NCBI GenBank assembly: GCA_027492875.1
Contig: JAPUDV010000076.1
Location: 1-64,000 of the forward strand
Direction of reading: 5' to 3'
DNA: 64,000 bases
From: Candidatus Competibacteraceae bacterium
GTDB lineage: Bacteria; Pseudomonadota; Gammaproteobacteria; Competibacterales; Competibacteraceae
In this document: piece by piece, positions 22,663 through 48,918 of the stretch
Position numbering within the stretch: position 1 is the first letter of the stretch
How the letters are laid out: every line of letters begins with the position of its first letter
The notes under the pieces: model-generated
Database searches by the model: none
The model's input: the letters and a program-made list of their open reading frames with translations, nothing else
What the model was told of the DNA's origin: nothing
Position numbers and translations under genes: made by a program

Positions 22663-22669
22663 CGCCTCG

Positions 22670-23190: not shown

Positions 23191-23326
23191 CAGCGAATCG
23201 CCTACTGCCACATGCGGCCTGGCCAGCCCGCGCCTGAGTCGATAGGCCCTCCAACTGCCTCGCTCCGCCCGGCACGGGCGATTCCTGCTATGCTCGGCCC
23301 GAGAGTCTCACGGGAGGTTCCCCGCC

Positions 23327-23728: not shown

Positions 23729-25978
23729 CAGGCGGGCAGCAACCAAGGCATTCCAGTCCGGCGGCTCAGTCCCCAGCAGCAGATCGCGTTCTCGGAATTC
23801 CCGATCGCGCATGTCGTCGGGCCACGTTTCGGGAAGCTCGGATCGCAGCCAAGCCGGTAGATTTTCCGGCGCCAAGGCGTCCAACGCATCGCGACGCTCT
23901 CGGTGATGGTGGGTCAGCCACGCTTCGGTTTCCGATTGAGGTCGGTCCAACAAGCGGCTGAAAATCGCCAGTTCGAGGAAATAGCGACCCTCTTCGAGGG
24001 CCACCCGAATTTCGTCCCAGGCCGGTAGGGCGAGCGCGCTGCGTCCATCCCACCGGTCGAGGTGGAGATAAGCCAGCGCGAAGCCAACCGGCCCGATGTC
24101 CTGACGGCTGTACAGTCGCGCTTCCAGTTCGGGCAACCAGGCGGCCAGCGCATCCCGTGCGTCCGCATCCTGTCGTTGCCACGCCCAGGCGGTCAAGGCG
24201 CGCAACAGATAGAGTACGTCGTCATTGCCGGGTCCCGGCTCGGGACGGCCCGCCAGAATCGCCCGGCATTCCTCGGCCCACTGGAGATCGCCGTTTATCG
24301 GCCCCACCAGAGCGGCGGCATACAGCAGCCACGCCAGTTCGCGCCAACCCCTTTCTTCGTGTTCGGGCGCCTGGGCGCGTTTGTGGCGGAACCGGGCCAG
24401 CGCTTCCCGGTACTCGCCCCGCCGCAGCGCCAGCCGTCCCCGACTTTCCAGATCCTTGAATTTTTCCTGTTCGGCAAATGTACCGTCCATGCGATCCAGT
24501 CGCTGTTCCCGCAAGCCGAGCAGCGCTCGACCCGGTTCCGGCAGGTTGAGGTCGATCAGGATGAGAATCAGCAGACCCAGCAGTCGGACCGAAATCTCGT
24601 CCGTCCCGGTGGCGCCACGCAGTCCATCGACGATAGCGACCGCCGTCTTGGCGTAGTGGCCTCGGCGGTATTCGGCCTTGGCCCAGTCGGCGTATAGGCC
24701 AGCGAATTCGGGATGCGCGCGCGCTAGTTGCGCCAACTGTCGCCGACAGTCATTTAGACGTGCGTGGTCGTGTTGCTCGGCCAAATGGGCCAGCAAGGGC
24801 GAGACCCAAAGCCGGGTCAGGGTCGGCAAACCATCGACGAGCGGCCATAGCCGTTCCAGCAGCGACCGGTTTTCCGCTGGAGCACCCAACTCGGGGACGC
24901 CGAGATGCTCGCGCAGGCGCTGGGTTGCCCGGCTGGGTTCGCCGGCGGCGAGAAACGTCTCCAGCGTCAGACGCGGCAGCAGTTCCCCGAGGACAGCGTC
25001 TTGGCCGGCGCGGGCATGTTCGGCGAGCCGGTCAGTCGCCAGATCGGCCCACGTCGGAGCATCGCTCATCCGCAATTCACCGGCGCCCAGCAGACACAGC
25101 CGACCCCGGCCTTGCCACGTCACCGCTGCTTGGGCGGCATCCAGGGCATCGCCGATCCGCTCTCCCGCCAACCAGCCCTGTAACAGCCTGGGCAGCAGCG
25201 CCTTTGCGTCGCGGGCGTCCAGTTGGCCCAACGCGGCCAGCACCGTACTCGCGCCGCGTTCCAGCAGGGTGGCGGCATAGTCCAACAGGTTGCCATTGCA
25301 ATCGCCGCAGGCCGACAGGATGACCAGCGGAGGCAAGGGTTGGGTCAGCGGCAGCTCCCAAAGCAGGCGGTCCGGCAGGCGAAACGGCGGCGCATCGGCG
25401 CGCTCGCTACCGTGCACGACCAGGTACAGCGCGCTGAAGCGGCGCGGATCTTGGGTGCGCAGCAGGGTTTTCACCAAGCGATGGCCGTCGTAGCGATGTA
25501 CCTGGGCGGGAGAAAGCGCGAGATCGACGAGGGGTTGCACCGCTTCGTCGGGCGGCCAGAGGTTCAGCAACGCCACGGGCGCGGTTCGGGCGGGCGAGAC
25601 CGGTTCCGCCGTGCGGGGGACGTGACGCCAGACCCGCAGGCGGTCGTGCAGTGGCTGACCATCCAGAGTCAGCCACTCATACGGAAAGCGCTGCCAAGCG
25701 TCTGGCAAGTCGGCGCTCAGACACAGATGCAGCCGGGAAGGCGTCTGGCGCAATGGTGCGGCCAGCCATTCGGCCAGCGGGGTGGGTAGCGCTGCTTCCA
25801 GCGCCTGAGTCCTGGAACCGTCGATCAGGCAACGGGGATCGATGGGCGTAGTCAGGCCCGCACGGTTGCTGGCCAATTTGGCGAGTCGTTCGGTATGGTC
25901 CGGCGCCCAGACCCGCAGATCTTCGTTATCCCGCCCTTCCGGCCACAGCCAGACCATCGGTTCAGTCATGAGGCTCAC
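23717..25978 (-). CDS. CHAT-domain caspase-like protease with C-terminal helical repeats
   Basis: 753 residues. The CHAT domain is N-terminal: after RFPYEWLTLDG, the catalytic His lies in LYLVVHGSE (residue 189) and the catalytic Cys in VILSACGDCNG (residue 224), followed by LDYAATLLERGASTVLAALG. From about residue 300 to the end the protein is helical with TPR-like pairs (AKTAVAIVDGLRG, LALRRGEYREALARF). Known CHAT proteases are activated by a partner and cut a specific protein. The start GTG at 25978 overlaps the stop of the upstream gene; ATG 25969 is the alternative. The order sigma-like gene, unknown gene, CHAT gene suggests a proteolytic switch. Confidence 0.8.
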   Translation of the reverse strand: MSLMTEPMVWLWPEGRDNEDLRVWAPDHTERLAKLASNRAGLTTPIDPRCLIDGSRTQALEAALPTPLAEWLAAPLRQTPSRLHLCLSADLPDAWQRFPYEWLTLDGQPLHDRLRVWRHVPRTAEPVSPARTAPVALLNLWPPDEAVQPLVDLALSPAQVHRYDGHRLVKTLLRTQDPRRFSALYLVVHGSERADAPPFRLPDRLLWELPLTQPLPPLVILSACGDCNGNLLDYAATLLERGASTVLAALGQLDARDAKALLPRLLQGWLAGERIGDALDAAQAAVTWQGRGRLCLLGAGELRMSDAPTWADLATDRLAEHARAGQDAVLGELLPRLTLETFLAAGEPSRATQRLREHLGVPELGAPAENRSLLERLWPLVDGLPTLTRLWVSPLLAHLAEQHDHARLNDCRRQLAQLARAHPEFAGLYADWAKAEYRRGHYAKTAVAIVDGLRGATGTDEISVRLLGLLILILIDLNLPEPGRALLGLREQRLDRMDGTFAEQEKFKDLESRGRLALRRGEYREALARFRHKRAQAPEHEERGWRELAWLLYAAALVGPINGDLQWAEECRAILAGRPEPGPGNDDVLYLLRALTAWAWQRQDADARDALAAWLPELEARLYSRQDIGPVGFALAYLHLDRWDGRSALALPAWDEIRVALEEGRYFLELAIFSRLLDRPQSETEAWLTHHHRERRDALDALAPENLPAWLRSELPETWPDDMRDREFRERDLLLGTEPPDWNALVAARLLPW

Positions 25979-28167: not shown

Positions 28168-31100
28168 GGCACAAAGCCCTATTAGCGGGCGAGTGTTTCT
28201 GAGGTTCCGTCGAAGGATTTCCCCGCTTTGAGAAAGGGGTCACAAAGCCCTATTAGCGGGCGAGTGTTTCTGAGCAATCAGATGGGTTGGATTCCATGCT
28301 AACTCTTTTGGTCACAAAGCCCTATTAGCGGGCGAGTGTTTCTGAGTCATCAGATTATTAATTGCCCACTATGGGCTGGAGAAGTCACAAAGCCCTATTA
28401 GCGGGCGAGTGTTTCTGAGTGGTGATGTTTTGAGGAGTGGCATGGATGATGATTCGTCACAAAGCCCTATTAGCGGGCGAGTGTTTCTGAGAGTTTGAGC
28501 TTCTTCACAGTGGCAACATGATGTGCGTGTCACAAAGCCCTATTAGCGGGCGAGTGTTTCTGAGATTTGAAGATTGGCAACTGTCCAATATCAAGAAGTT
28601 TGAGTCACAAAGCCCTATTAGCGGGCGAGTGTTTCTGAGATGATGGTGTACTGGAAGGGGTAAAGTATTCTGGTGCAGTCACAAAGCCCTATTAGCGGGC
28701 GAGTGTTTCTGAGCCACTTTAAGACCGCTTCATCCCATCGATGGCGCGCAGTCACAAAGCCCTATTAGCGGGCGAGTGTTTCTGAGGTATCTCGTTCTGC
28801 ATCGGTTACGGTGCGATTGGACTCGTCACAAAGCCCTATTAGCGGGCGAGTGTTTCTGAGAATTTCGTATCTTCCACCATGATCCAAGTCCCCACAATGT
28901 CACAAAGCCCTATTAGCGGGCGAGTGTTTCTGAGAAGAGTCTAATTGGAATGATGGAATTATTGCGGATTTGTCACAAAGCCCTATTAGCGGGCGAGTGT
29001 TTCTGAGGAATCAGATTGTTGCTGAAGTTGCTGAGGTGACTGGTGTCACAAAGCCCTATTAGCGGGCGAGTGTTTCTGAGGAGATTCCCCGTGGTTCGAT
29101 CTGGTCAGTTGGAAAAGTCACAAAGCCCTATTAGCGGGCGAGTGTTTCTGAGAAAGCAGAAACTTGGACAGCAACCATGCAATCGCTCAGTCACAAAGCC
29201 CTATTAGCGGGCGAGTGTTTCTGAGAAGAATTGATTGATGCTGGACATGAATGGGCGATCTGTCACAAAGCCCTATTAGCGGGCGAGTGTTTCTGAGAAG
29301 GAAGCGATTGAATCGGAACCGACCAAACCCAAGGTCACAAAGCCCTATTAGCGGGCGAGTGTTTCTGAGCTGAGATCACCGGTTTCGTGCTGAAGCGTGG
29401 GAAGGTCACAAAGCCCTATTAGCGGGCGAGTGTTTCTGAGGTGTAAGGTGGATGAAAACATCTACGTCATGGATGAGTCACAAAGCCCTATTAGCGGGCG
29501 AGTGTTTCTGAGTTGGATTGATTGCTGGACTGGATTGGGCTGCTGTGGTCACAAAGCCCTATTAGCGGGCGAGTGTTTCTGAGTACGTAAAGCCCCCAGA
29601 TGGGGCACCCGTCTTATGGGTCACAAAGCCCTATTAGCGGGCGAGTGTTTCTGAGTTGTACGTCGGGACGCTGCAAGCGCGGATCGCGAACCGTCACAAA
29701 GCCCTATTAGCGGGCGAGTGTTTCTGAGCAAATTTCGATATACCGTTTGTGCTTCCGACGATAATTGTCACAAAGCCCTATTAGCGGGCGAGTGTTTCTG
29801 AGGAGGAGATAGCACATGAAAGAAATTTTCCTTGAAGAGTCACAAAGCCCTATTAGCGGGCGAGTGTTTCTGAGCATTCCGACCGCCGCCAGACCTCCGA
29901 CCGTGGCGATGTCACAAAGCCCTATTAGCGGGCGAGTGTTTCTGAGCACTGCCCGTCAGATCGATCGCGACATTGGCGCTATCTGTCACAAAGCCCTATT
30001 AGCGGGCGAGTGTTTCTGAGAAGATTATCCGCCTGGCGGCCACGCATGGCGCGCAAAGTCACAAAGCCCTATTAGCGGGCGAGTGTTTCTGAGTTTAATA
30101 AAGGACGACGACTACTGGTGGATTGAATAGGTCACAAAGCCCTATTAGCGGGCGAGTGTTTCTGAGTCGAGATCGAATTCAATTAAACATGGAGAGTTAA
30201 AATGGTCACAAAGCCCTATTAGCGGGCGAGTGTTTCTGAGTTACGCTGGCACAATCCCACAATGGGTCAACCGCAAAGGTCACAAAGCCCTATTAGCGGG
30301 CGAGTGTTTCTGAGGATGTCGAAGGTTTTGTGCTTTATGAAGATTGGGAAATGGTCACAAAGCCCTATTAGCGGGCGAGTGTTTCTGAGAACGCGATCGA
30401 ACTGCGGCTGAATCAGATTTTCGCTGTCACAAAGCCCTATTAGCGGGCGAGTGTTTCTGAGCGCATGTGCATTGGTTCGGAAGTTTCACCCGGACGTGTC
30501 ACAAAGCCCTATTAGCGGGCGAGTGTTTCTGAGATTTCAGATTTGTTGGAAGAGGGGATGGACCCCGTCGTCACAAAGCCCTATTAGCGGGCGAGTGTTT
30601 CTGAGATTTCGTATCTTCCACCATGCTCAAAACTCCAATGTTGTCACAAAGCCCTATTAGCGGGCGAGTGTTTCTGAGTGGATCGTACTTATACGAGGAA
30701 AACAGGATCATGGAGTCACAAAGCCCTATTAGCGGGCGAGTGTTTCTGAGCATCACTGGAACTGAAGGTGAACCGCATCGAAATTAGTCACAAAGCCCTA
30801 TTAGCGGGCGAGTGTTTCTGAGCCACCAAAGATATTTTATTAGCGGTTCGTTTGAAAAGTCACAAAGCCCTATTAGCGGGCGAGTGTTTCTGAGGCTTTA
30901 AATATTGAACTAAAACTGCCACAGTTCATTGTCACAAAGCCCTATTAGCGGGCGAGTGTTTCTGAGACGTAAAGCCCCCAGATGGGGCACTCGTCTTATG
31001 GGTCACAAAGCCCTATTAGCGGGCGAGTGTTTCTGAGCAACCTGAATGGCTTGAATCTTTCGATAATTTTTTGTCACAAAGCCCTATTAGCGGGCGAGTG

Positions 31101-34100
31101 TTTCTGAGCTAGTGTCACGCGGATGTGGCGAACAGCCCCTTCCAGTCACAAAGCCCTATTAGCGGGCGAGTGTTTCTGAGTTAGACACCGTGGATTTCGC
31201 TAATTTGGATTGAGCCGTCACAAAGCCCTATTAGCGGGCGAGTGTTTCTGAGCTATCGAAGCAGCAACCGAACGTCTCGCTGACGAAAAAGTCACAAAGC
31301 CCTATTAGCGGGCGAGTGTTTCTGAGCATAGGCGGTTTTGTGATTATTCCGCACGATGTGAATGAGTCACAAAGCCCTATTAGCGGGCGAGTGTTTCTGA
31401 GCTACGCCGACAGCACCGAGAGCGAGGCGATCATCGAGTCACAAAGCCCTATTAACGGGCGAGTGTTTCTGAGTGGAGAGTACATCCCCAATTGGCAAGA
31501 TCGCGTAATGTCACAAAGCCCTATTAGCGGGCGAGTGTTTCTGAGGGATTACTTAGAGCGTTACTAGACGCTGGAGACTCTGCGTCACAAAGCCCTATTA
31601 GCGGGCGAGTGTTTCTGAGAGATTAAGTTCGTTGCTTAATGCGATGAATATCTGTGTCACAAAGCCCTATTAGCGGGCGAGTGTTTCTGAGCGCGGCCAC
31701 GGCGGACTGGGTTTCCTCGGCGATCTTGCGTCACAAAGCCCTATTAGCGGGCGAGTGTTTCTGAGGCCGAACTGGCCGAGGCCCAGGGACAGGACGCCAA
31801 AGTCACAAAGCCCTATTAGCGGGCGAGTGTTTCTGAGAAGATTCGTGCTGTGGATTCTACGGATACCGTAGCGTCACAAAGCCCTATTAGCGGGCGAGTG
31901 TTTCTGAGTCCTCTTTCGTCCAGGGTTTTTGATGACGGTCAATAGGTCACAAAGCCCTATTAGCGGGCGAGTGTTTCTGAGCCGGTTTGCGCGGCGCGCA
32001 GCAGGCTCAAGAGATGCGTCACAAAGCCCTATTAGCGGGCGAGTGTTTCTGAGGAGATCGGTACTGCGAAATTCGACCAATCAACCGGAGAGTCACAAAG
32101 CCCTATTAGCGGGCGAGTGTTTCTGAGGGTGAGTTTCAATTTAATCCAGTAGATACTCATTCGTCACAAAGCCCTATTAGCGGGCGAGTGTTTCTGAGAA
32201 CTGCACGGCGTACTGGGCGCCAAGCCGGCGCCACCGGTCACAAAGCCCTATTAGCGGGCGAGTGTTTCTGAGTACAACGTGGGAAATACTACGGGTTGGT
32301 ACATCTTGGTCACAAAGCCCTATTAGCGGGCGAGTGTTTCTGAGCATGGAATCACACAATTTTGGGAGCAGACGCAGATGGAGTCACAAAGCCCTATTAG
32401 CGGGCGAGTGTTTCTGAGGACATGCGGGGGGGCGCCGTACACGTCGGCGGCCACCACGTCACAAAGCCCTATTAGCGGGCGAGTGTTTCTGAGAGCACCG
32501 AGTTCGAGTGGAACCCGGTGACTGCGGGCGGGTCACAAAGCCCTATTAGCGGGCGAGTGTTTCTGAGCGCCTCGCTCACCTGCTCATCGATTTCGGCGAA
32601 TAGTCACAAAGCCCTATTAGCGGGCGAGTGTTTCTGAGCGATCTATGGCGATTCCTGGATACCATGATCCCTTGTCACAAAGCCCTATTAGCGGGCGAGT
32701 GTTTCTGAGTGCAGAGTAATTTGGATGTGGGACCAGGATCTGGTGCGTCACAAAGCCCTATTAGCGGGCGAGTGTTTCTGAGAATGAACTGCTCGTACAG
32801 CTCACTGCCGAAAAGCGGGGTCACAAAGCCCTATTAGCGGGCGAGTGTTTCTGAGTCATGAGACGATTTTGACAGCTTACCAGACGAAATATGTCACAAA
32901 GCCCTATTAGCGGGCGAGTGTTTCTGAGCGGTCAGATCGGGATCGGTGTAACGCGCCTCGGGATGTGTCACAAAGCCCTATTAGCGGGCGAGTGTTTCTG
33001 AGAAATGAAAAAACCGTTGAGTCATATAACTCACCCTTGTGTCACAAAGCCCTATTAGCGGGCGAGTGTTTCTGAGGCATTACCCGTGATCGTGAGAGTT
33101 CCGGACGAGCCGTCACAAAGCCCTATTAGCGGGCGAGTGTTTCTGAGCGAAGGATGGTATTTGTTACATCCCATATCTGGATAAGTCACAAAGCCCTATT
33201 AGCGGGCGAGTGTTTCTGAGATTAAAGAGCGTGGATCATCCAAAATCATGATAAAAGTCACAAAGCCCTATTAGCGGGCGAGTGTTTCTGAGCAGAGAAA
33301 TCGACCGCGAACGGATGCGGGAAGGCCAGTCACAAAGCCCTATTAGCGGGCGAGTGTTTCTGAGGCCGGACGTTTGAATCTCAAAACGCCAATCGACAAG
33401 TCACAAAGCCCTATTAGCGGGCGAGTGTTTCTGAGGAGAAAGTGTCCAATTCATCAAAATTTGGGAGCAGAGTCACAAAGCCCTATTAGCGGGCGAGTGT
33501 TTCTGAGATGGTAGAAAAGTATCCGTACATCGGCATATCTGGAGTCACAAAGCCCTATTAGCGGGCGAGTGTTTCTGAGCAATCGGTCTTGTGATCGACC
33601 CAATGCAATCTGAGTTGCGTCACAAAGCCCTATTAGCGGGCGAGTGTTTCTGAGCTCCCGGTGAATATGTCATTAAGAAAGATCGAGTTGTCACAAAGCC
33701 CTATTAGCGGGCGAGTGTTTCTGAGTGATTTCAGAATCACTCGTTCGTAAAAACTCCGACAAGTCACAAAGCCCTATTAGCGGGCGAGTGTTTCTGAGGG
33801 CCCCAAAGCGCTTGCCGCGCGACGGCCCCTCGGGGTCACAAAGCCCTATTAGCGGGCGAGTGTTTCTGAGTAACCCAGTCTCGCGCCGTTGCATCTGCGG
33901 AGTTGGGTCACAAAGCCCTATTAGCGGGCGAGTGTTTCTGAGTATGTATGTTACCATTTTCTGGACCACATTTAGAGTAGTCACAAAGCCCTATTAGCGG
34001 GCGAGTGTTTCTGAGTTATCCAGATGGTCGATGTATGACGCTTCAACAAGTTCTGGTCACAAAGCCCTATTAGCGGGCGAGTGTTTCTGAGTTGTTTAAC

Positions 34101-35907
34101 CACGGAGAAAACACATGAACCAAATCAGTCACAAAGCCCTATTAGCGGGCGAGTGTTTCTGAGACTAAACGTTCCCAAACTCCACCGCAACGATAATTTG
34201 TCACAAAGCCCTATTAGCGGGCGAGTGTTTCTGAGTCGAAACTGGGAATTTCAACATAAAGAAGTACCAGTCACAAAGCCCTATTAGCGGGCGAGTGTTT
34301 CTGAGATGATGGAGATTTTCGGTTCGGATTGGGACGACCGACTGTCACAAAGCCCTATTAGCGGGCGAGTGTTTCTGAGCAGATAAAGCTTGTTGATTAC
34401 TTTCCCAACTTGTTGTGTCACAAAGCCCTATTAGCGGGCGAGTGTTTCTGAGCTCGTTGATTTGATAAGGTTTGGTACAATGGCAAGTAGTCACAAAGCC
34501 CTATTAGCGGGCGAGTGTTTCTGAGCAAGGCAACAAGGGTCATGGCCGCGTCTCCGCGGATATCGTCACAAAGCCCTATTAGCGGGCGAGTGTTTCTGAG
34601 TCTTCCATTGATAATCATCAAATTCCACAATCGCTTGAGTCACAAAGCCCTATTAGCGGGCGAGTGTTTCTGAGTCGGGCGTTTGTGCTGCGGGCGGCGC
34701 GGGAATGCCGCGTCACAAAGCCCTATTAGCGGGCGAGTGTTTCTGAGTCCGTATGCTTCCACGAACCCACAAGAGCTTATCAGTCACAAAGCCCTATTAG
34801 CGGGCGAGTGTTTCTGAGTCCACCGGAAACGCCGCGCCGATCACGTTGAAGTCACAAAGCCCTATTAGCGGGCGAGTGTTTCTGAGAGATGTCCGGCACA
34901 ACAATCGTACTGGAATGGGTCTTAGTCACAAAGCCCTATTAGCGGGCGAGTGTTTCTGAGAGATTGCCAGATTGGCTGTGGAAAACTTACTCAGCCAAGA
35001 CGTCACAAAGCCCTATTAGCGGGCGAGTGTTTCTGAGAAATACTTCGATCCAGAAAGCCCGAAGTGTTGAGCGGTCACAAAGCCCTATTAGCGGGCGAGT
35101 GTTTCTGAGCTTTGATTACCTGCTTCATTGGTCACGGCTACTTTGGTCACAAAGCCCTATTAGCGGGCGAGTGTTTCTGAGATCAAAACTCCCAAACTTT
35201 GGATTAAAGGTCATAGGTCACAAAGCCCTATTAGCGGGCGAGTGTTTCTGAGTCATTCCAGATCTAAAGAACGCTGCATTCCATCCTGAAGTCACAAAGC
35301 CCTATTAGCGGGCGAGTGTTTCTGAGTGATTTAACAAAATGAAATAAACCCATACTTGGAGGTCACAAAGCCCTATTAGCGGGCGAGTGTTTCTGAGAAA
35401 GCCATGATGGCGGAACTCAACGGAGAATTAGCATGGTCACAAAGCCCTATTAGCGGGCGAGTGTTTCTGAGCATTCATACGGAGTAACACTGGGTTACTC
35501 CTAAAAATGTCACAAAGCCCTATTAGCGGGCGAGTGTTTCTGAGAAGTGTTTCGTACATTTTCCAGAATGATTCTGCATCGTCACAAAGCCCTATTAGCG
35601 GGCGAGTGTTTCTGAGAAACAATTCGGGATAACTTTTCACAAACTCTTGTAGGTCACAAAGCCCTATTAGCGGGCGAGTGTTTCTGAGAATTCGGGCAAA
35701 CATCCGGGCGCAGGCATTGCGCCAGGTCACAAAGCCCTATTAGCGGGCGAGTGTTTCTGAGGGCATTCGGTAATTGCTGTCCGTCCAGGTAGCTTCGTCA
35801 CAAAGCCCTATTAGCGGGCGAGTGTTTCTGAGTCGGGAATGGGTTCCCGTTTCACCACCGGTCCAGCGGTCGTCACAAAGCCCTATTAGCGGGCGAGTGT
35901 TTCTGAG
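28168..35907. CRISPR. CRISPR array: 107 repeats of 36 bp, 106 spacers
   Basis: The repeat reads GTCACAAAGC...GTTTCTGAG on the + strand (36 bases) and spacers are about 34-40 bases. I counted 107 repeat starts. All repeats appear identical except the first (28168, second base G instead of T) and the one at 31438 (G to A at repeat position 18). A GCCC/GGGC pair allows a small hairpin. The uniform repeats indicate an active or recently active array. The cas1-cas2 pair lies beyond the right end. Orientation is not settled; see findings. Spacers are more AT-rich than the chromosome, as expected for phage DNA. Small ORFs inside the array are artefacts. Confidence 0.97.
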
Positions 35908-36291
35908 CCCATTTTTCAGAGTGAAAAAATCCATTCCCTACGGCCAAAACAGCGCTTCCAGCCTTCTGACTCTGACCTTGGTCAGGATAGCACTTCTCAC
36001 CCAGCGCGCTCCAGCGCCTTCTCCACCGCGCGTAAACCTCAATCACCCGCCACGACCCCGCGCTTTTGCGTTCGGCCGCCAGGATCGCCGCTCCCTCGGC
36101 GATCTCCGGGGCTTCTTCGCCCGCACCACCCTTCAAACTCCGGGTCGCCGTCCGCCAAAAGCGATTCATTTCAGACGGTTGCCCCTGCGATCTCGCATTT
36201 GAAAGCCTCCATGCCCAACATCCTGAAAAATCATTCTTTTCCCTCATACTGATAGCCTCACCCGGCATCGTGGCCTCGACGGATCGCATCC
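35908..36291. promoter_or_regulatory. Region between array and cas1, candidate leader
   Basis: About 380 bases with no supported gene. The first 55 bases next to the array are AT-rich (TTTTT and AAAAAA tracts). CTGACC/GGTCAG form a small inverted repeat at 35972-35985. If the array is read right to left, this would be its leader and promoter. A reverse-strand frame across it runs into the repeats and is not believed. Confidence 0.45.
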
Positions 36292-37272
36292 CTAACGTCC
36301 CAGCGCACTCAAGGCCAGCGGATGAAATGGTTGTGCCGGATCGTCCAGACACCGGGCCAGCTCACCGGCCTGGGCCTGGATAATCGCCCGGTAAGCTTGA
36401 TGTTCCTCTTTCCACAACACGCGCTCGACCAGCCACGCTTCCCAAGCCCGATAAAACTCGCCGCGCCGCCCGTCCCGCAGCAGGCACGCGCCATCTTCGT
36501 GGATCTCGAAATCCTCGGGCGTGTAGTGATGCCGCGCCAGCCGGATCGCCAGGCGGTCCACCAACGGCCGCAGCGGCTCCATTAAATCCAGCGCGCAGGA
36601 CGGCTGCCCGCCATCGCTGGCGTGGAACACCCCCGCGAACGGGTCCAGCCCATAACCGTGCAGGGCATTACGCAGCTCGCTCAACAGCAGCGTATAGCCT
36701 AACGACAACAAGGCGTTCACCGGATCGGTGGCCGGCCGCTTGCGCCGCCCCGGAAATCCAAACGCCGTCCCGGCCAGCAGCGTGGGAAACGCCGCAAAGT
36801 ACGCCCGCGCCCCGCTGCCCTCGATACCGCGCAGACTGTCGGCGCTTTCGGCGTGCTCGGCCCGCTCGATGAACGGCTCCAGACCCGCCGCCATCTCGCC
36901 CTGATCCAGCGTGCGCAACAACCAGCGCTGGTTGCGCAACTTGACGTCCACCAGCGCGCGGGCGAACGGCAAGGCCAACGCCGGTTCGCGGATCAACTCA
37001 TACTGCCGCGCCCGCCGCCGCACCTGCCCGCCGCAATCGCCCAGCACATGACCGCGCAACCAGCCCCGACTGCTCAGCAGCGTCGTCGGCACGCCGCGCT
37101 CCAGCAACGCATCCAGCGCGTCCGTGGTCACTTGCACCCGGCCATAGACCATCACCCGCTCCACCTGCTCCAGCGGCAGGGACTGCTCGCCGCCCTCCCG
37201 GTCCTGCACCACCAAGCGCCGGCCGGCCTTGCACAGCCGCGCGCCCTGCTGATCCAGATACAAGGTACACAT
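36292..37272 (-). CDS. cas1: CRISPR integrase Cas1
   Basis: 326 residues from ATG 37272 (MCTLYLDQQG) behind GGAG; GTG 37281 overlapping the cas2 stop is the alternative. It shows the Cas1 layout: beta-rich N-terminal domain (VVQDREGG, VERVMVYGRVQVT), then the helical domain with the metal-binding residues in GIEGSGARAYFAAF (Glu), FHASDGGQPSCALDLMEP (His, then the Glu of LMEP). Together with Cas2 it inserts new spacers. The length is normal and there is no fused reverse transcriptase. Adaptation genes are often absent from type III-C loci, so this one may serve the type III array directly. Confidence 0.95.
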   Translation of the reverse strand: MCTLYLDQQGARLCKAGRRLVVQDREGGEQSLPLEQVERVMVYGRVQVTTDALDALLERGVPTTLLSSRGWLRGHVLGDCGGQVRRRARQYELIREPALALPFARALVDVKLRNQRWLLRTLDQGEMAAGLEPFIERAEHAESADSLRGIEGSGARAYFAAFPTLLAGTAFGFPGRRKRPATDPVNALLSLGYTLLLSELRNALHGYGLDPFAGVFHASDGGQPSCALDLMEPLRPLVDRLAIRLARHHYTPEDFEIHEDGACLLRDGRRGEFYRAWEAWLVERVLWKEEHQAYRAIIQAQAGELARCLDDPAQPFHPLALSALGR

Positions 37273-37277
37273 CGCCC

Positions 37278-37562
37278 TCACTCCACAATCATGACCGCCG
37301 CCGGGTCCAGTGCCGCCGCCAGCGCCCGACTTTCCCCCAGCGATTGCGCATCCTCAACCCGAAACCAATCCAGCCGATCCCCAGGCTCCAGCGGCTCGCG
37401 TCGCAGCAACACCTCCAATCGCGCCCGGCGCCGCGCATCCAGCGGACACACGAACACCGACTTCTGCACCGCCTCGCCGAAACCCCAGAGCAGCTTATGC
37501 AAACGGGTCCGCCGCCGCTGATCGGCAATGTCATACGCCACCAACCACCATTGCGCGGACAA
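37278..37562 (-). CDS. cas2: CRISPR-associated Cas2
   Basis: 94 residues. TTG at 37562 is chosen because GAGGAGG lies 6 bases before it, giving a protein that begins SAQWWLVAYDIADQRRR; the conserved Asp is in YDIAD. RLHKLLWGFGEAVQKSVFVCPLDARRR completes the ferredoxin-like fold. Cas2 dimers hold two Cas1 dimers during spacer capture. cas1 follows with overlap or a few bases. The operon runs toward the array, away from the divergent RAMP operon. Confidence 0.93.
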   Translation of the reverse strand: MSAQWWLVAYDIADQRRRTRLHKLLWGFGEAVQKSVFVCPLDARRRARLEVLLRREPLEPGDRLDWFRVEDAQSLGESRALAAALDPAAVMIVE

Positions 37563-37635
37563 CGCGGGCCTCCTCAATCATCCCTTCCTGGTTCTACAAC
37601 GCGGCGTGGCGCGAAATTTTTAATGGCATCCGGTT

Positions 37636-37663
37636 TGAAAAATTCATCCGTGGCTCCGTTGAG
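37636..37663 (+). promoter_or_regulatory. Shared ECF-like promoter motif, type III cas operon
   Basis: TGAAAAA (37636-37642), 14 bases, CGTTGAG (37657-37663). Same boxes and spacing as upstream of the sigma-CHAT operon. It lies 40 bases before the TTG start of the first RAMP gene. Confidence 0.5.
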
Positions 37664-37703
37664 GGGATGAACGCCTTGCAATTCCGCCAAAGGAGGATTT
37701 AAC

Positions 37704-38738
37704 TTGAGCGTGACAACTGCAAAGCACCGACAAGGACCACTCAAAATGAACGTGCTGGCTGAACTGCGAAGCCCGGACAGCGCCGTCCTGACCCTTCGTA
37801 CCCTCACTCCGCTCTACACCGGCGGCGTCGGCCAGCACGGCGACCAGATCCATCCCGCCGGCCTGCTGGGCGGGTTGCGCCGGTTTTCGTGCCTGTTGGC
37901 CGCTGCCGTGGGCGATGCCGGGTTTGAATACGCAGTTTGGGGCACGCCCACCGATGCGAAAAACCATTACGCCAAGCGGATCGGATTGCGGCTGGATCCC
38001 GCGGGTCTGGAAAAAATCAAACCGGTTGCCGGCAAGGGTTGCCTGAACTGGTCGCGCCCCGATGGACAACCGCGACAAGGCTGGTATTACAACGTCGCCC
38101 ACGAAGGGACGCTTCGCCTCACCCTGACCCGGCGCGGCATCAGTGACCCCCACTGGCAACTGCTGCTGCTGGCGCTGCGGATTCAGCTCAACCACGCCAC
38201 GTTCGGCAGCCGGGATCAATGGGGATTGGGCGTGCTGGCCGCTGACGATCTCCCGGCGGTGGACCCATTACAGCCGCCCTTGACCGCGCCGTTGCCCGAC
38301 CGGCCCGGCCTGCATCGCGCCCTGTTCGCCGAGATTCGGTTCAGCCCCCCGTTGCCGCCTAACTGGTCGGCTCGACTGGAACAAGGTCTGCGCTGGCGGG
38401 AAAAGCTTCGCAACAGCTTCCGCCAACCCGGAGCGGATGACTTGCGCCACTACCTGTTCGGTCAACTCAACCGCCACGGCAGCGCCATCAACTTTTCGGC
38501 GCTGTACCCGCACGGTGACAACGGCTGCGCATTGCGGATTTGGGGTGTGATCCCACATACGACGCCGTCCCAGTTCGGTGACCGGCGCGCCCAAGTCGTG
38601 CAAACGCTGCGGCAGGCGATGCGTCAGGGACCGGACGAAGTATGGCCAGGGGAACGCCGGATCGTCTGGCAGGACGGCGCGGAGCATCAAGCCAACTTGG
38701 CCAACTGGATTAACCAACTGGCGGGAGTCACCGCATGA
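37704..38738 (+). CDS. cmr1: Cmr1-like RAMP (Cas7 family) protein
   Basis: 344 residues. The TTG at 37704 is the start because AAGGAGG lies 7 bases upstream; ATG 37746 is the alternative. The N-terminal segment LTLRTLTPLYTGGVGQHGDQIHPAGLLGGLRRFSCLLAA is the Cmr1 hallmark (TPLYTGG, then SxxGxLRxW-like helix). Cmr1 caps the target-recognition end of type III-B complexes. First gene of a seven-gene operon whose members overlap or nearly touch; the next start overlaps its stop (ATGA). Confidence 0.8.
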   Translation: MSVTTAKHRQGPLKMNVLAELRSPDSAVLTLRTLTPLYTGGVGQHGDQIHPAGLLGGLRRFSCLLAAAVGDAGFEYAVWGTPTDAKNHYAKRIGLRLDPAGLEKIKPVAGKGCLNWSRPDGQPRQGWYYNVAHEGTLRLTLTRRGISDPHWQLLLLALRIQLNHATFGSRDQWGLGVLAADDLPAVDPLQPPLTAPLPDRPGLHRALFAEIRFSPPLPPNWSARLEQGLRWREKLRNSFRQPGADDLRHYLFGQLNRHGSAINFSALYPHGDNGCALRIWGVIPHTTPSQFGDRRAQVVQTLRQAMRQGPDEVWPGERRIVWQDGAEHQANLANWINQLAGVTA

Positions 38739-40060
38739 ACTTCGATATGCTGGCGGATGAGAATTTCCAGCCCAAAAAAGACGACTGGCTCCAGCAGGGC
38801 GCGCGACTGCGGCGCACGGTTCGCAAAAATAAGGATCTCACGGATCGGCGTACTGAGTTCCTGCGCCAATACGCCGTGATTGACGCCAACGGAATGGGTC
38901 AGGGCGAGGCGGCAATCCATCGTTGCAACAGCTCCGCATTGCTACCGACGGGGTTCAATACCACCGCCCGTCCGATGGAACAGGCGCTGGCCGCCTTCCC
39001 CCGCTACAGCGCCCGGCTACTGCTGACCTTCCGCCTGCTAACCCCGCTACTGACCAAGGACGACGACCCGTTCTATTTATTCGACAACCCGACACGCAAG
39101 GATCATTTGCTGGGTCTGCCCTATCTGTCCGCCGCCAGCCTCAAGGGCTTGTCGACCGATGCTTATCAGCGGGCATTTCCGGGCGCGACGCCCTGGACCG
39201 AACTTGGCGACAGCGACAAGGACCCCGACCGAACCCGCCTCTTCCGCCACGCCGATCCCCATGCCAAGCGGTTGTTCGGCATCGCCGACGACGGCGCAAA
39301 GATCGAGAGCGAAAAAGGCCGACTGCACTTCTCGCCGGTCTGGTTCAACCGCTTGCAATTGCTGGTGATGAACCCCGGTAATCCCGAAAACGCCATCGGC
39401 ACGCTGCCGATCCAGTTTGAAGCGGTCGCTCCCGACCAGACTGGTGTCCTGGAAGTGGTCTACTTCAATCCGCATGGCGTGAAAGACAGCGACGAAGCCA
39501 CCGTGCGCGCGGATCTGGCCCGCTGGCTGGCGGCGGTCGCCACCTGGTGGCCTGCGCTTGGATTGGGCGCAAAACGGCTGGCTGGTTATGGCGCCATCGA
39601 TATCGTGAAGGCGCAATTGCAGGCGGTCGGCTGGTCGGACATGGCCGGTGGCGCCTCAACGACGCCGGCCGCGCCGGCTCAGATCGAACCTCCACCCTAT
39701 TATCAGGAGTATCTACACGATGGCGGACCGCTGAACCAGGAAGCGTTTAATGCCAAGCTCCAAGCCGAACTGAAGCGATTGGATGCGGAAATGAGCCGGC
39801 TCAATCATGAAGCTCATGGCAAAGATGCCAAGATACGCAAACGAGCGCAACGGGAACTCAAAAGAGCCACGAACCAACGTACTAGCCGTGAACAGGAGTG
39901 GCTAGGTCAATACCGCAAGGTGCTGGAATATTGGACACAGTTCGGATCAACCACCACCGTCGAAGCGGCGGCTCCAAGGCTATTGCTGGCTTCCCACGAG
40001 GAAAAAGGGGAGGACAGTTGGATGAAATTAGCCCATTGGATTGCAGGAGAACAGCCATGA
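38735..40060 (+). CDS. RAMP-superfamily subunit with charged helical extension
   Basis: 441 residues. The RAMP fold is visible in LLLTFRLLTPLLTKDDDPFYLFDN, YLSAASLKGLSTDAYQRAF, GRLHFSPVWFNRLQLLVMNP and LGLGAKRLAGYGAIDI (the last a RAMP-type glycine-rich end). A C-terminal extension of about 130 residues is highly charged and helical (LQAELKRLDAEMSRLNHEAHGKDAKIRKRAQRE-like heptads), probably a coiled coil. It could be the Cmr6 or a Cas7-like subunit. Between Cmr1 and Cas10, with ATGA overlaps on both sides. The exact subunit name is uncertain. Confidence 0.65.
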   Translation: MNFDMLADENFQPKKDDWLQQGARLRRTVRKNKDLTDRRTEFLRQYAVIDANGMGQGEAAIHRCNSSALLPTGFNTTARPMEQALAAFPRYSARLLLTFRLLTPLLTKDDDPFYLFDNPTRKDHLLGLPYLSAASLKGLSTDAYQRAFPGATPWTELGDSDKDPDRTRLFRHADPHAKRLFGIADDGAKIESEKGRLHFSPVWFNRLQLLVMNPGNPENAIGTLPIQFEAVAPDQTGVLEVVYFNPHGVKDSDEATVRADLARWLAAVATWWPALGLGAKRLAGYGAIDIVKAQLQAVGWSDMAGGASTTPAAPAQIEPPPYYQEYLHDGGPLNQEAFNAKLQAELKRLDAEMSRLNHEAHGKDAKIRKRAQRELKRATNQRTSREQEWLGQYRKVLEYWTQFGSTTTVEAAAPRLLLASHEEKGEDSWMKLAHWIAGEQP

Positions 40061-43056
40061 GCGAAGGACAGATGGACGCCCGCCACCGCGACTTGATTCT
40101 GGCGGCGGAAATCAGTGGACTCATCCACGATACAGGAAAAGCGCGGGAAGAGTTTCCTCAGGAGAAACTGAGTGGCGGCTTAGGTTCAAAGCAAAAGAAA
40201 AAGAAATTTGATGAGCCGGCTAAAAAATGCCATCAGCGCGAAGCGCATGGCGCAATCCTGGAGGAAGGCCGCGCTTATCCGCCTGCGGACGAAGAGATTT
40301 GGTTGAAAAAAATCAAGCAGCACGAAGACTGGGCAGAGGTGCTGCGGTTACCGGAAAAGTGGATTAAAGCTAAAACTATTCAAGCCCACGGTTTGGGCGA
40401 TCCTCTGCGTCAACACCATGCGACCGGCAACTTCCCCCATGATCAGCTTACTCTGTTGGGCGATCTTTACACGCTTGGGGCTGACACTCGCGATTCCGCT
40501 TTGGATAAAGGCTCAGGCGGGACTGATTCGGGTAAGCAAAAGTCTGAATGTGGTTTTATTGCTGACAGTTTCGGCAATGAACATGAAACTTATAGTCAGG
40601 ATAAGTTGCGTGAACTGTGGCCCAAGGTTCGGGAAGCGATTGAACAAATACTGTTCAAGGACAGTGGGTGGCAAAATGTTCCCAAAACCCGTGAAAAGCT
40701 ACTTGACGCCATTGAACCGCTTTTTCGTCAGGCGCTGGGCGAAACACGCCGCCCCACTAATGATGTCACGCTTTGGCACCATAGCTATTCGGCTGCCAGC
40801 CTGTTCAAGGCAGCGGTTGCCGAGGGTGTTCTACGCCAGGACTTCCGTCACTGGCAAGATGATGATGGGCTCTTCAACCTGCCTCAGATGGGCCGGGTTC
40901 GCTTCCGGTTACTAGGGATTCGCTGGGATTGGGTCACGCTTGTCGGCGGCGCTTTGCAACCGGTCGTGTTAACCGCGTTGGCGAATCATCGGCAGCAAGC
41001 CATCACTGATCTGCGCCGGCGGCTGGAGGTGGGCTATCCCGTCGGGAACCTGATCTACGAGGACGATAACGGCGCCGTGTTCGTGGTCGGTGGTTTTTAC
41101 CATGGGCCGGAAGACCCCGACGGCCGGAAGACCGAAGCGCTGTTCCAACAACATATTCTGAACCCGCTGCAAGCCGGCATTCTGCAAGACCTCGCGCCAC
41201 TGGGCGCTGGCGTAGCGGTGCGGCTGGCGTGGACGCGACCGCGTCTGTATCTCACCGATTACCCGGAAGTCATGGCGACCGGCTGGACCCAGGACAGCGC
41301 GGATCGCCAACGACTCTTGCAAGTGGGCGAGGATGAGTTGCGCAAGCTCTGGGCCAGGCAGACCGGCGAAGGCCAGCAGGTGCAAATCTGCCCGCAATGC
41401 GGTTTGCGTCCGGGCTTGGCCCGGGAACTGGCGCTCAACGAAAGTGGGCTGAACGCCGACGATCCGAGCGGGCCAAGTGGCTTCTGCGACCATTGCCAGA
41501 CGCTCGTGGCGGACAGCGCCTACAGCCAGCGCCGCCGCGAAGCGGATCGGTTATTCGGCTTCGAACCCGAGAGCTTCAATCTGCAAGAGATCCGCCAGCG
41601 CAATCCGGCCGGCAACGCCCGGGTTGTTATGCTCTCCGTGCGCGTCAACCCTGAAATCATCGCGACTGGGGCAGTGTTGCTGACGCAACTGGCACGGCCT
41701 ATGGCGGATTTAACGGGAATGCGGGTGATCCGCGCGTCTCTGGCGGAGCAGGCCGGCGATGATCTGGAAAGACAGGTCTTGAAGTGCTTGCGTGAAGGCG
41801 GCGACGAACCAACGCTCTACAACCAGATTTCTCCCGAATTAGCCAATGATGCCCGTCTTCTGGTCGGTGACGATTATTGGTTGGACTTCCAGAAACAAGA
41901 GCGCAAGGTTAAGGGAAGTGATGGACGAGTGATGGGCGCACCGGCGGAAAAAGCGTTGCGCCTGCTCGACGAATTTTTCCTCCGTGAATCCATTCCCGCT
42001 GATGCCGGCCTTTACCGCCACGATGGCGACAAGTTATTGCTGTTTGGAATGCGAAAACACGCCTCGCCGGGTCGGCTGGTCCGCACCTGGGACGACTTGC
42101 GGCAAATCTGGCGGCAAATCCTCTGGGACATCGCCGGTGACACCCAGCACTGGCTGATGCCGCTGTCACTGGACGCCGGCGGTTTCCGCGTCATCGTGGC
42201 CGCTCACGATGCCCGCCAGGCCCTGAATCGGATTCATCGGCAGGTGAACAAGACCCTCGGCAAGGTGCGCGCCGGGCTGGACGTGCATGTCTCGGCCTTG
42301 GCCTTTCGCGAGAAATTCCCGCTGTACGTGGCCCTGGACGCGCTGCGCCGCATGGAACGCCGCATCGTCACCATCCCTCCGCAAACCTGGACCCTGCGCT
42401 CGGCCCTGGACCGCAACGGGACGCTCACTCTCAACTGGGACACCGAGGGGCAGGGTCTGGTGCAATGGACGGTGAACCTGCGCACCAGCGACCCCGAGCA
42501 ACCCGACCTCTGGTATCCCCACGCGGTGTGCGCTTCCCGCCCGGCAGGACCGGGACGGCTGGTCCGCCTGGATCAAATCGAACCGGGCGAAACCATCCGT
42601 CTGCGTCCGTCGACCTTCGACTTCCTGGTGCTGGACGGCACCGCCCGCCGTTACGACTTGCGTTATGACGCCACCGGTCGCCGCCCGCATTTCGTCCTGG
42701 GCGAACCGGGGCGACGGTCCTACCTGCTGGAACAGTTGCCGGAGTTGCTGACGCTGGCCGGACAGACCGGCTGGAACGCCAGCCAAGTCAAGGGCATTGT
42801 GGGCCAAGTCATCGAATGCTACGAAAAGTGGGTGCGTGATGTGCCTGCCGACTTGCGGGCGCAAGGCCGCGATGCCTGGCAGACGCACGGCGCCGCCATC
42901 TTTCGCCGTTACCTCAAAGACCGGCCCGAGGTCCGCGATCGCCTGATCGCGCTGCTCCAGAACGAAGAACGCGCCGGTCTGCTGTTCGATGCGTTCGAGT
43001 GGAGTGGATTGATTGAAAAAGACGCCCATTCGCTCGTTGTAGAAGAAGAAGCCTAA
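40057..43056 (+). CDS. cas10: Cas10 (Cmr2-like) with intact HD motif and inactivated cyclase site
   Basis: 999 residues. The N-terminal HD nuclease motif is present (LIHDTGK, His24-Asp25). A Cys4 zinc finger follows (Cys445, 448, 477, 480). The palm domain aligns well around LDAGGFRVIVAAHDARQALNRIHRQV and HVSALAFREKFPLYVALDALRRMERR, but the catalytic GGDD is Gly708-Gly709-Phe710-Arg711, so metal binding for cyclic oligoadenylate synthesis should be lost. Loss of the cyclase is the mark of type III-C. No CARF-domain effector is in the window, which agrees. The complex should still bind RNA and may cut DNA with the HD domain. Confidence 0.88.
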   Translation: MSEGQMDARHRDLILAAEISGLIHDTGKAREEFPQEKLSGGLGSKQKKKKFDEPAKKCHQREAHGAILEEGRAYPPADEEIWLKKIKQHEDWAEVLRLPEKWIKAKTIQAHGLGDPLRQHHATGNFPHDQLTLLGDLYTLGADTRDSALDKGSGGTDSGKQKSECGFIADSFGNEHETYSQDKLRELWPKVREAIEQILFKDSGWQNVPKTREKLLDAIEPLFRQALGETRRPTNDVTLWHHSYSAASLFKAAVAEGVLRQDFRHWQDDDGLFNLPQMGRVRFRLLGIRWDWVTLVGGALQPVVLTALANHRQQAITDLRRRLEVGYPVGNLIYEDDNGAVFVVGGFYHGPEDPDGRKTEALFQQHILNPLQAGILQDLAPLGAGVAVRLAWTRPRLYLTDYPEVMATGWTQDSADRQRLLQVGEDELRKLWARQTGEGQQVQICPQCGLRPGLARELALNESGLNADDPSGPSGFCDHCQTLVADSAYSQRRREADRLFGFEPESFNLQEIRQRNPAGNARVVMLSVRVNPEIIATGAVLLTQLARPMADLTGMRVIRASLAEQAGDDLERQVLKCLREGGDEPTLYNQISPELANDARLLVGDDYWLDFQKQERKVKGSDGRVMGAPAEKALRLLDEFFLRESIPADAGLYRHDGDKLLLFGMRKHASPGRLVRTWDDLRQIWRQILWDIAGDTQHWLMPLSLDAGGFRVIVAAHDARQALNRIHRQVNKTLGKVRAGLDVHVSALAFREKFPLYVALDALRRMERRIVTIPPQTWTLRSALDRNGTLTLNWDTEGQGLVQWTVNLRTSDPEQPDLWYPHAVCASRPAGPGRLVRLDQIEPGETIRLRPSTFDFLVLDGTARRYDLRYDATGRRPHFVLGEPGRRSYLLEQLPELLTLAGQTGWNASQVKGIVGQVIECYEKWVRDVPADLRAQGRDAWQTHGAAIFRRYLKDRPEVRDRLIALLQNEERAGLLFDAFEWSGLIEKDAHSLVVEEEA

Positions 43057-43070
43057 CCGCCGAGAGACCT

Positions 43071-43970
43071 ATGAAATCCCATCCTCTTTACCTGTTCGCG
43101 CTCGATCCCACCCACATCGGCGCGGGCGGCTACCGGCTGGGCCGGGTGGACAACACCATTCTGCGTGATGCCGCCACCGGCCTGCCCAAGCTTCCCGGCA
43201 GTTCGATCAACGGCGCCACCCGCTCCGCCGCGATCTATTCCCTGCCCGATGGCGAGCGGGAACCGGCGATGCAGTACGCCCGCGCCATCCTCGACGAGCA
43301 GAACAAGAAGCGCCCCCATCCCGGCGCCAAGGATCCGGTCGCGCGGGTGTTTGGCTACGCCGAGGGCGATGCCGAGGGGCAATCCCGCATCGGTCTGGTC
43401 TCGTTCCGCGACGCCGAAATCCTCGCCTTCCCGGTCCCGACCATGACCGGGCCGCGCTGGATCACCACGCCCGCCCTGCTGGAGGCCGCCGGTTGCCAGG
43501 ACGTCCCGAAGATCAACGATCCGACCAAGATCATCACCCAAAGCGTCGGCACCCCACCATCCCGGCTCAACCTGGGCTGGATTCTGCTGGACGCGGCACC
43601 CAAGCCAATTCCCTTCCCGGCTTTCCTGAACGATCAACCGGGCATGGCTCATGCCCGCGCCAACCTGGTGCTGGTTCACGACAGCCTGTTCCCCAGCCTG
43701 GTCAACGCCAATCTGGAAACCCGTACCTCGGTGTCGATCGACTTCGAGACCGGCGCCGGGGCGGATGGGCTGCTGTTCACTTACGAAGCCGCCCCGCGCG
43801 GCACGCTCTACCGGGGGCAGGTGGATTTCGACGACCAGCGCTTTTCCGCCGAATACCCGGGTGCGCTGGCGCTGGTGAAAAAGGGACTGATGCTGGCTTG
43901 TCAACTGGGCCTGGGTGCGATGACTACCCGGGGTTTTGGGCGGATGCAACCGATGCTGGCGGAGGCGTGA
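43071..43970 (+). CDS. cmr4: Cmr4-like Cas7 backbone subunit
   Basis: 299 residues. The Cmr4 start is clear: LYLFALDPTHIGAGGYRLGRVDNTILRDAATGLPKLPGSSING (the HIGAG and LPGSSxxG motifs), then RVFGYAEGD, SFRDAEILAFPVP, and a final GLGAMTTRGFGRM glycine-rich loop. Multiple copies form the crRNA-binding backbone and cut target RNA at six-base intervals; the catalytic Asp in this family lies in the first third, and VDNTIL supplies a candidate. 14 bases after Cas10, 1 base before Cmr5. Confidence 0.85.
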   Translation: MKSHPLYLFALDPTHIGAGGYRLGRVDNTILRDAATGLPKLPGSSINGATRSAAIYSLPDGEREPAMQYARAILDEQNKKRPHPGAKDPVARVFGYAEGDAEGQSRIGLVSFRDAEILAFPVPTMTGPRWITTPALLEAAGCQDVPKINDPTKIITQSVGTPPSRLNLGWILLDAAPKPIPFPAFLNDQPGMAHARANLVLVHDSLFPSLVNANLETRTSVSIDFETGAGADGLLFTYEAAPRGTLYRGQVDFDDQRFSAEYPGALALVKKGLMLACQLGLGAMTTRGFGRMQPMLAEA

Positions 43971-43971
43971 C

Positions 43972-44361
43972 ATGATCAATCTCGAACCGCTGGCCGCCAG
44001 GGCCGCGCAAGACATGGTGATTCCCACCACCCCCAAGGACTCGCTCAATCTCATCAACAAGGCGTTGATGGTGCTGGCCGAACAGGGCTTGTTCGCCTTC
44101 GGCTTGTTTCTGAACAGTCGCAAGGACCGGGAAGACGCCCTGGCCCGGCAAATCCACGCCGCCGTCAGCCGGTTGCTGGTGGACGCTAGCCTGGCCGCCA
44201 CGCCACCGAATGGCCTAGCCATCGCCGACTACTACAAGGCGCTGACCGAATCCCGCCCCAACGAGCCGGACGCTCAGGCCCTGCAACGGCTGATTCTCAC
44301 CAAACAGGTGGTGGAAACCGCCCTCACCTACGGGCGGTATCAGGCCCGATCGCTGACCTGA
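43972..44361 (+). CDS. cmr5: Cmr5-like small subunit (Cas11)
   Basis: 129 residues, all helical, matching Cmr5: an N-terminal helix (LEPLAARAAQDMVIPTT), then LAEQGLFAFGLFLNSRKDREDALARQI and the second half QRLILTKQVVETALTYGRYQARSL. Cas11 subunits line the inner belly of the effector next to the target strand. Start ATG 43972 chosen because it lies directly after the Cmr4 stop. Confidence 0.85.
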   Translation: MINLEPLAARAAQDMVIPTTPKDSLNLINKALMVLAEQGLFAFGLFLNSRKDREDALARQIHAAVSRLLVDASLAATPPNGLAIADYYKALTESRPNEPDAQALQRLILTKQVVETALTYGRYQARSLT

Positions 44362-44371
44362 GGCGCGCGCC

Positions 44372-45211
44372 ATGCCCTTTACCGGTCTGACCTTGGAACT
44401 GGAAACGCCGCTGCACATCGGCGCCGGACGGAGCGGGATGCTGGCGCGGGGTCACGGTTTCGTGCCGGGCCACGTCATCAGTTACGCGCTGGTCGCCACC
44501 ATTGGCAAAGCCCGTGGGGGCCAATCCGCCGATTTCGTCCGCGCCCTGACGGCCGTCTTGCAGGATGTGCGTTGCGGCCCGTTTTTCCTGCTGGACGCGG
44601 AAAAGCAACACCCTCTGTTGCCCCGGCGCGACCGGGAGCGCATCGAAAACCAGCATCTGACCGCCCGCAACCAGGTCACTCTCGACCCGCACGCCGGTAG
44701 CGCGGTGGAAAGCGCCCTGTTCGAGGTGGAAAGCATCGCCGCCCGGGTACTGCACGGTCCCCGGCGTGGCCAACCCGTGCAACTGGCCGGCGGTCTCTGG
44801 CATCGTGTTCCCCACCTGGCCGGGAAACCGCTCCAGGACTGGTTTTGTGCTGGCCTGCTGCTCGGCGGCGAACTCAAGACTGGGATGGGTCGGGTCAAGC
44901 TGGCGCGACAAGGCTGGCGACCGAACGGACCGCATTACGCCCAGCATCCCGGCTGGCCGGCGGACGAACGCGGTCTGCATTTGACCAAAGATACCCTCCT
45001 GCCCGGTCCCAGCCTGGACGGCGCGACCGATGCGCCACTGCAACCCTGGCTGGGCCGGTTGTTCGACCCACAACAGGGCTTCGGGCGACGCTTCAGCCCG
45101 CCGGCGCTGGTCCGGCTGGACGGCACGGTTCGGGAAGCCGGTGTGTTTCTGCCGAGCGATCGCGAGGTGGGTCTGGGCTGCTGGACGAGAACCGATGCCT
45201 CGGCTGACTGA
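44372..45211 (+). CDS. RAMP subunit, Cas5/Cmr3-like or Cmr6-like
   Basis: 279 residues. It starts with LTLELETPLHIGAGRSGMLARGHGFVPGHVISYALVATIG, a RAMP beta strand and glycine loop, and has LLLGGELKTGMGRVKLARQGW in the last third, a loop typical of Cas5/Cmr3 and Cmr6 proteins. No catalytic residue can be named. The operon has no other clear Cas5 candidate, so this is my first choice for the crRNA-handle binding subunit. Its 3' end overlaps cas6 by 17 bases. Confidence 0.65.
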   Translation: MPFTGLTLELETPLHIGAGRSGMLARGHGFVPGHVISYALVATIGKARGGQSADFVRALTAVLQDVRCGPFFLLDAEKQHPLLPRRDRERIENQHLTARNQVTLDPHAGSAVESALFEVESIAARVLHGPRRGQPVQLAGGLWHRVPHLAGKPLQDWFCAGLLLGGELKTGMGRVKLARQGWRPNGPHYAQHPGWPADERGLHLTKDTLLPGPSLDGATDAPLQPWLGRLFDPQQGFGRRFSPPALVRLDGTVREAGVFLPSDREVGLGCWTRTDASAD

Positions 45212-48866: not shown

Positions 48867-48918
48867 CGACCGAAAGTATATAATATCAAAGTTGATACAA
48901 CTGTTCTGGGGAATTCCG

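Follow-up and report, generated by a model that had tools for sequence, protein, structure and literature searches.

A spacer in a Competibacteraceae type III-C CRISPR array matches a truncated relaxase remnant and may be tolerated through its orientation

The type III-C locus and its array

The DNA analyzed here (the window) is a stretch of 64,000 nucleotides from contig JAPUDV010000076.1 of a Candidatus Competibacteraceae bacterium (assembly GCA_027492875.1), in which a CRISPR-Cas locus occupies positions 28168-46049. Its array (28168-35907, minus strand) comprises 107 repeats of 36 nt, 105 of which are identical, and 106 spacers, all different and 32-41 nt long. A putative leader (35908-36291, minus strand) separates the array from cas1 (36292-37281, minus strand), and cas2 (37278-37577) is found next to cas1 on the same strand. 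The plus strand carries cmr1 (Cmr1gr7, 37704-38738), cmr6 (38735-40060), cas10c/csx11 (40057-43056), a cmr4-like RAMP gene in the cmr4 position (43071-43970), a probable cmr5 for the small subunit (43972-44361; placed by position and by conservation in relatives, with no family match), cmr3 (44372-45211), and cas6 (45195-46049), of which cmr1, cmr6, cmr3, and cas6 were recognized by PADLOC. The same tool identified the product of 40057-43056 as Cas10c (2.5e-67), and a match of this protein to the NCBIfam Csx11 family (4.1e-53) reached 180.9 bits, which is under the curated cut-off of 248.95 bits. Judging from this gene content (Cas10c/Csx11 together with Cmr1, Cmr3, Cmr6, a RAMP protein in the cmr4 position, and the small subunit), this is a CRISPR-Cas locus of type III-C that has a Cas1-Cas2 pair of its own.

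Homologous loci were detected in four other genomes of the family, whose Cas10c proteins are 70-80% identical, and all cas genes of the locus are open and conserved, sharing ~56-88% identity with those of as many as four relatives. Cas10c has the HD motif LIHDTGK and DGDK in place of the GGDD palm (cyclase) motif; among the five family members compared, all keep the HD motif and all have a degenerate palm of the form (D/N)GD(K/R/Q), and thus cyclic oligoadenylate signalling by Cas10c would not be expected. As Cas1 has no fused reverse transcriptase, acquisition from DNA would be expected. A PAM is rarely seen for type III arrays that have cas1-cas2 genes of their own (PMC8482600). Similar to the type III-C loci of Methanothermobacter and Methanosarcina mazei (PMC7694759), the system combines a Csx11-type Cas10 with Cmr-type subunits, but it belongs to a Competibacteraceae branch and has cas1-cas2 genes of its own, an array of 106 spacers, and the degenerate palm motif.

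Several other features of the region and the array were noted. Directly downstream of the operon, a gene at 46995-48866 encodes an HNH and superfamily 2 helicase protein, which was not found near the four related type III-C loci in the stretches fetched, and a 1639-codon open frame follows (48892-53811, plus strand) that has neither a normal codon-usage signal nor a PADLOC match. Within the array, spacers 20 (29584-29619) and 39 (30967-31001), 19 positions apart, differ by one mismatch and a one-base shift, which could reflect either two samplings of the same site from variants or a duplicated and then mutated spacer. Spacers 10 (28861-28898) and 34 (30606-30642) have 20 bases in common (ATTTCGTATCTTCCACCATG) and then diverge; no match was found in viral contigs. 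Neither a search of the whole array against plasmid and phage records in distant mode nor a search of three spacer cores against viral contigs gave a match.

A separate type I system is encoded on another contig (C36; L062 8477-17234), with a cas3-like gene, its own cas1, and an array of 21 complete spacers whose last repeat is degenerate and lies beside a G-rich stretch near the contig end. The repeat of this array (ATTCGCCC...ATTGAAAC) differs from the type III-C repeat, and the two systems therefore do not share the repeat that DNA-targeting self-recognition through the type I effector would involve. A search of the 21 type I spacers against the genome gave no self-match, a control of little power.

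Spacer 106 and the relaxase remnant that it matches

The spacer nearest cas1, spacer 106 of 106 (35833-35871, minus strand, 39 nt), is the exact reverse complement, in all 39 of 39 bases, of positions 21945-21983 (plus strand). The match, which the earlier note had placed in a Toprim gene, was confirmed: when the 3.83-Mb draft genome was searched allowing up to 3 mismatches, the spacer sequence was present in two copies only, and since the chance of such a match is ~1e-17 (hand calculation), coincidence can be excluded. Spacer 106 is thus a self-matching spacer in the full sense, with a unique exact counterpart of its whole length elsewhere in the genome. No PAM-like flank was seen at the protospacer. 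The earlier note had also considered that the match might be an assembly error. However, spacer and protospacer lie 14 kb apart on one contig of 66.3 kb, and the identity spans the whole spacer and stops exactly at the repeat borders with no extension into the repeats, as would be expected of real acquisition and not of an assembly overlap. It is also highly improbable that the draft genome is a composite of two kinds of cell, some carrying the spacer and others the element: the draft does consist of 146 contigs, but the single contig, the exact borders of the match, and an estimated contamination of 0.58% all speak against such a mixture.

The protospacer falls within the sense strand of an open frame at 21886-22662 (plus strand), which was assigned by coding score and homology to the DUF3991/Toprim C-terminal domain of an IncQ2/MOBP-type relaxase. 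The encoded protein is 51% identical, over 90% of the query, to an IncQ2/MOBP plasmid relaxase and aligns to residues 555-787 of an 823-aa open frame in pBRST7.6; a match was also found on NZ_SPMZ01000075.1. The relatives from Contendobacter and Competibacter (76-82% identity) extend at least 30 residues further at the N-terminus. The homology to these relatives stops abruptly at ~21903, and no N-terminal relaxase piece could be found upstream of this point in any frame. The N-terminal nuclease domain (PF03432) expected of an IncQ2/MOBP relaxase (MobA) was found in the plasmid protein only. What the earlier note called a Toprim gene is therefore not intact but a 5'-truncated remnant among other pieces of mobile elements. 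Two long overlapping open frames, 21489-22799 (plus strand) and 21880-22722 (minus strand), were rejected as the gene here, as they had no family match and were not picked by the coding-score model.

The surroundings of the remnant were also inspected. A YafQ/RelB toxin-antitoxin pair (21033-21627, minus strand) lies directly upstream, and downstream (23080-23196) is the start of a DUF5131 protein that is cut off after ~40 residues; the Toprim and DUF5131 pair occurs in the same order in some relatives. A CHAT-domain protein (23717-25978) is encoded between the mobile remnants and the array. To the left, positions 1-20000 contain genes of an integrating conjugative element, including that of a TIGR03756 family protein (17288-18733), and a CbbQ-type ATPase is encoded at 11335-12300.

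The source of spacer 106 could be either the chromosomal remnant or an unsampled element identical to it over these 39 bases, because the closest relatives differ at 11-12 of the 39 protospacer positions. It is possible, if somewhat doubtful, that the spacer was taken from an incoming mobilisable plasmid with the same relaxase piece and that the chromosomal match is incidental or arose later. Relatives of the Toprim domain do occur on IncQ2 plasmids, and a second spacer, spacer 104, likewise matches a plasmid mobilisation-type gene (see below); against a plasmid source stand the differences in the nearest sampled relatives and the lack of any match when the Toprim protein and the protospacer were searched in viral contigs. 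Such an origin would concern the source only and is compatible with the tolerance proposed below, which it would leave unchanged.

Direction of array transcription

The strand of the crRNA decides how the match in the remnant is to be read. If the array is transcribed from right to left, the crRNA of spacer 106 has the same sense as the Toprim mRNA and would be ignored by a type III complex; if it is transcribed from left to right, the crRNA would target this mRNA. Both options had been put forward in the earlier note. The only terminal mutation in the array is a single one in the left, leader-distal repeat (28168-28203, minus strand), at handle position -2, in a handle that, read from right to left, would be used by no crRNA. 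The repeat closest to cmr1 in L066, a related type III-C array, is without its 5' half and keeps the stem-hairpin and the handle; this loss is limited to an unused 5' part and fits a first repeat in the same reading direction. Read from right to left, the repeat forms a hairpin (-9.4 kcal/mol) followed by an 8-nt tail, the handle UUUGUGAC, and 8 nt is the usual size of a crRNA handle made by Cas6. Furthermore, the spacers are purine-rich on the plus strand (66/100, p = 0.0018), as would be expected if crRNAs read from right to left were antisense to purine-rich mRNAs. Type III spacers in general have a coding-strand bias of ~65%, which is a different measure from the purine bias (PMC8482600).

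In the first 50 bases adjoining the array, the putative leader on the cas1 side is A+T-rich, and richer in A+T than the left flank. A scan of this putative leader for sigma-70-like promoters found none, and a comparison with relatives showed no clear conservation. Counts of open frames on each strand of the spacers gave no strand signal, and SD-ATG motifs in the spacers (6 on the plus and 3 on the minus strand, with 2.5 in shuffles) are too few to count.

Taken together, the terminal repeats, the 8-nt handle, and the purine bias indicate that the array is transcribed from right to left, that is, from the cas1 side. Under this polarity spacer 106 is leader-proximal and would be the newest, which supports the earlier suggestion regarding the spacer on the cas1 side, and its crRNA, GACCGCTGGACCGGTGGTGAAACGGGAACCCATTCCCGA, would be identical in 39/39 bases to the plus strand at 21945-21983. 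A crRNA of the same sense as the Toprim gene cannot pair with Toprim mRNA, and thus spacer 106 would not be complementary to a transcript of its target, as functional type III self-targeting would demand. Transcription from left to right is unlikely, distinctly so. In that case the crRNA would be antisense and would truly target the Toprim mRNA, and this self-targeting would be tolerated because the remnant is silent, or would serve to silence the element; a remnant that lacks its start region may indeed not be transcribed, and on the opposite strand the repeat can fold into a comparable hairpin (-8.9 kcal/mol). However, the terminal repeats of both this array and L066 contradict this direction, the tail after the hairpin would be 13 nt instead of 8 nt, the A+T-rich flank on the cas1 side and the purine bias favour the opposite direction, and two further self-matches, in GH94 and ParA-like genes (see below), would become antisense. 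The terminal repeats and the handle position thus favour the option of the earlier note in which a sense crRNA is ignored, and disfavour its alternative of a targeted Toprim mRNA.

Other self-matching spacers and tolerance of host-derived memory

By searching the other spacers against the genome, three more exact matches (100%, all on other contigs) and one near match (91%) were detected. With transcription from right to left, the crRNA would be antisense for spacer 56 (32199-32236, minus strand), whose match on contig C106 (L047) lies in a gene for a CheA-type hybrid kinase. It would be sense for spacer 59 (32419-32457, minus strand; GH94 gene, contig C65, L046), for spacer 104 (35689-35725, minus strand; contig C142, L048), whose target in a mobilisation module is a plasmid-type gene for a ParA-like ATPase, adjacent to a NikA-like mobilisation gene, and for the near match, spacer 66 (32929-32966, minus strand; 30/33 bases, RoxA-like JmjC gene, contig C105, L049). 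Contig C142 was rejected as a closed circle, as its ends do not overlap. No shared PAM was seen in the flanks of the four exact protospacers. Spacers 1-49 had no match in the genome, all four exact matches (56, 59, 104, and 106) and the near one falling within spacers 50-106; the one-sided probability for the exact ones is 0.08 (hand calculation). Homologous stretches of the targets are 85-95% identical in other Competibacteraceae, implying that several of the targets are ordinary chromosomal genes. Two spacers (32929-32966 and 34819-34850) also match Competibacteraceae genes inexactly, at 85-95% (L049; G004:C322:10724-10755), which may possibly be memory of DNA from related bacteria.

The crRNA would be sense in four of the five self-matches (106, 104, 59, and 66) and antisense only for spacer 56; the excess is not significant by itself (one-sided binomial 0.31 for three of the four exact matches, 0.19 with the near match included). 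Handle/flank pairing has been proposed to suppress self-recognition in type III systems (Marraffini and Sontheimer 2010, as cited in PMC5576922). For spacer 56, the 3' flank of the target RNA, CUCAAACC, pairs with the crRNA handle at positions -2, -3, -4, and -6. Pairing at -2, -3, and -4 is the self-protection pairing of type III-A systems and blocks Cas10 activation. The sole antisense self-match thus resembles type III-A self-discrimination, although it differs in being a type III-C case, a single one examined post hoc and read from sequence; three Watson-Crick pairs at -2 to -4 arise by chance with a probability of 1/64. Such pairing would still permit cleavage of the target RNA by the Cmr4-type subunit. 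Apart from one wobble, the target flank of spacer 106 pairs with the handle at a single position, which would leave this match unprotected by the handle; this is irrelevant if there is no complementary RNA.

These observations lead us to consider it probable that host DNA is acquired in either orientation and that only spacers with harmless orientations or flanks survive, spacer 106 being inert and tolerated. A type III-C system with its own Cas1-Cas2 and without reverse transcriptase would sample DNA without regard to orientation, sometimes host DNA, and spacer 106 would be the newest insertion. Its source would be a piece of Toprim sequence that a mobilisable element had carried as part of its relaxase gene, either the remnant at 21886-22662 or a copy in an unsampled element with the same 39 bases. 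Transcription of the array from the cas1 side would then yield a crRNA of the same sense as the Toprim transcript, and a complex that requires complementary RNA would stay silent, so that the spacer is tolerated. The same filter could account for the sense crRNAs of spacers 59 and 104 and of the nearly matching spacer 66, and for spacer 56, whose antisense crRNA would meet a target flank pairing with the handle at -2 to -4. As the simplest account, this needs no new mechanism; judged by its orientation, spacer 106 is most probably a slip of memory formation that the cell tolerates, rather than a suicide signal or a regulator. The self-matches are too small in number for proof of a survival filter.

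It is unlikely that the type III-C system is inactive in interference, such that orientation is irrelevant and self-matches build up neutrally. Four exact self-matches among 106 spacers and the degenerate palm of Cas10c could be explained in this way, but the cas genes are all open and conserved in relatives, the HD motif is intact, the near-uniform repeats speak for recent use, and a palm degenerate in all five family members compared is not a local lesion. At the other end, we regard as very speculative the broader idea that type III-C arrays of Competibacteraceae routinely keep host spacers, with a cyclase-dead Cas10 and tolerance through sense orientation or handle pairing, and that spacers of the spacer 56 type serve as Cmr4 RNA silencers, for example of the CheA-type kinase, without DNA damage.

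Tolerance by orientation has a parallel in the type III-B system of Marinomonas mediterranea, for which Silas et al. 2017 (PMC5576922) showed that spacers derived from the host are lost by selection when antisense and persist when sense. That system likewise combines a type III effector with acquisition genes of its own, and its surviving host-gene spacers mostly give crRNAs unable to pair with mRNA; however, RT-Cas1 was overexpressed experimentally there, whereas the present case is a natural type III-C array with a Cas1 lacking reverse transcriptase, interpreted from sequence. The orientation selection described by Silas et al. seems to have a natural type III-C counterpart in the Competibacteraceae array. 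Self-targeting spacers in general also match the host chromosome or integrated elements exactly (review PMC6990116), but the orientation of spacer 106 should prevent targeting altogether, and its array holds several self-matches that are consistent with the same rules of tolerance. Type III-C systems have hardly been studied, and our literature search found no paper on self-targeting in type III-C. Beyond the match first noticed, the analysis adds three further exact self-matches and a near one, and the identification of the target as a truncated relaxase remnant. The four exact self-matches (three in what would be an inert orientation and one with what would be a protective flank) would make it straightforward to test how host-derived memory is tolerated in type III systems, and the array may also serve to examine whether the orientation filtering seen in an overexpressed system acts in nature.
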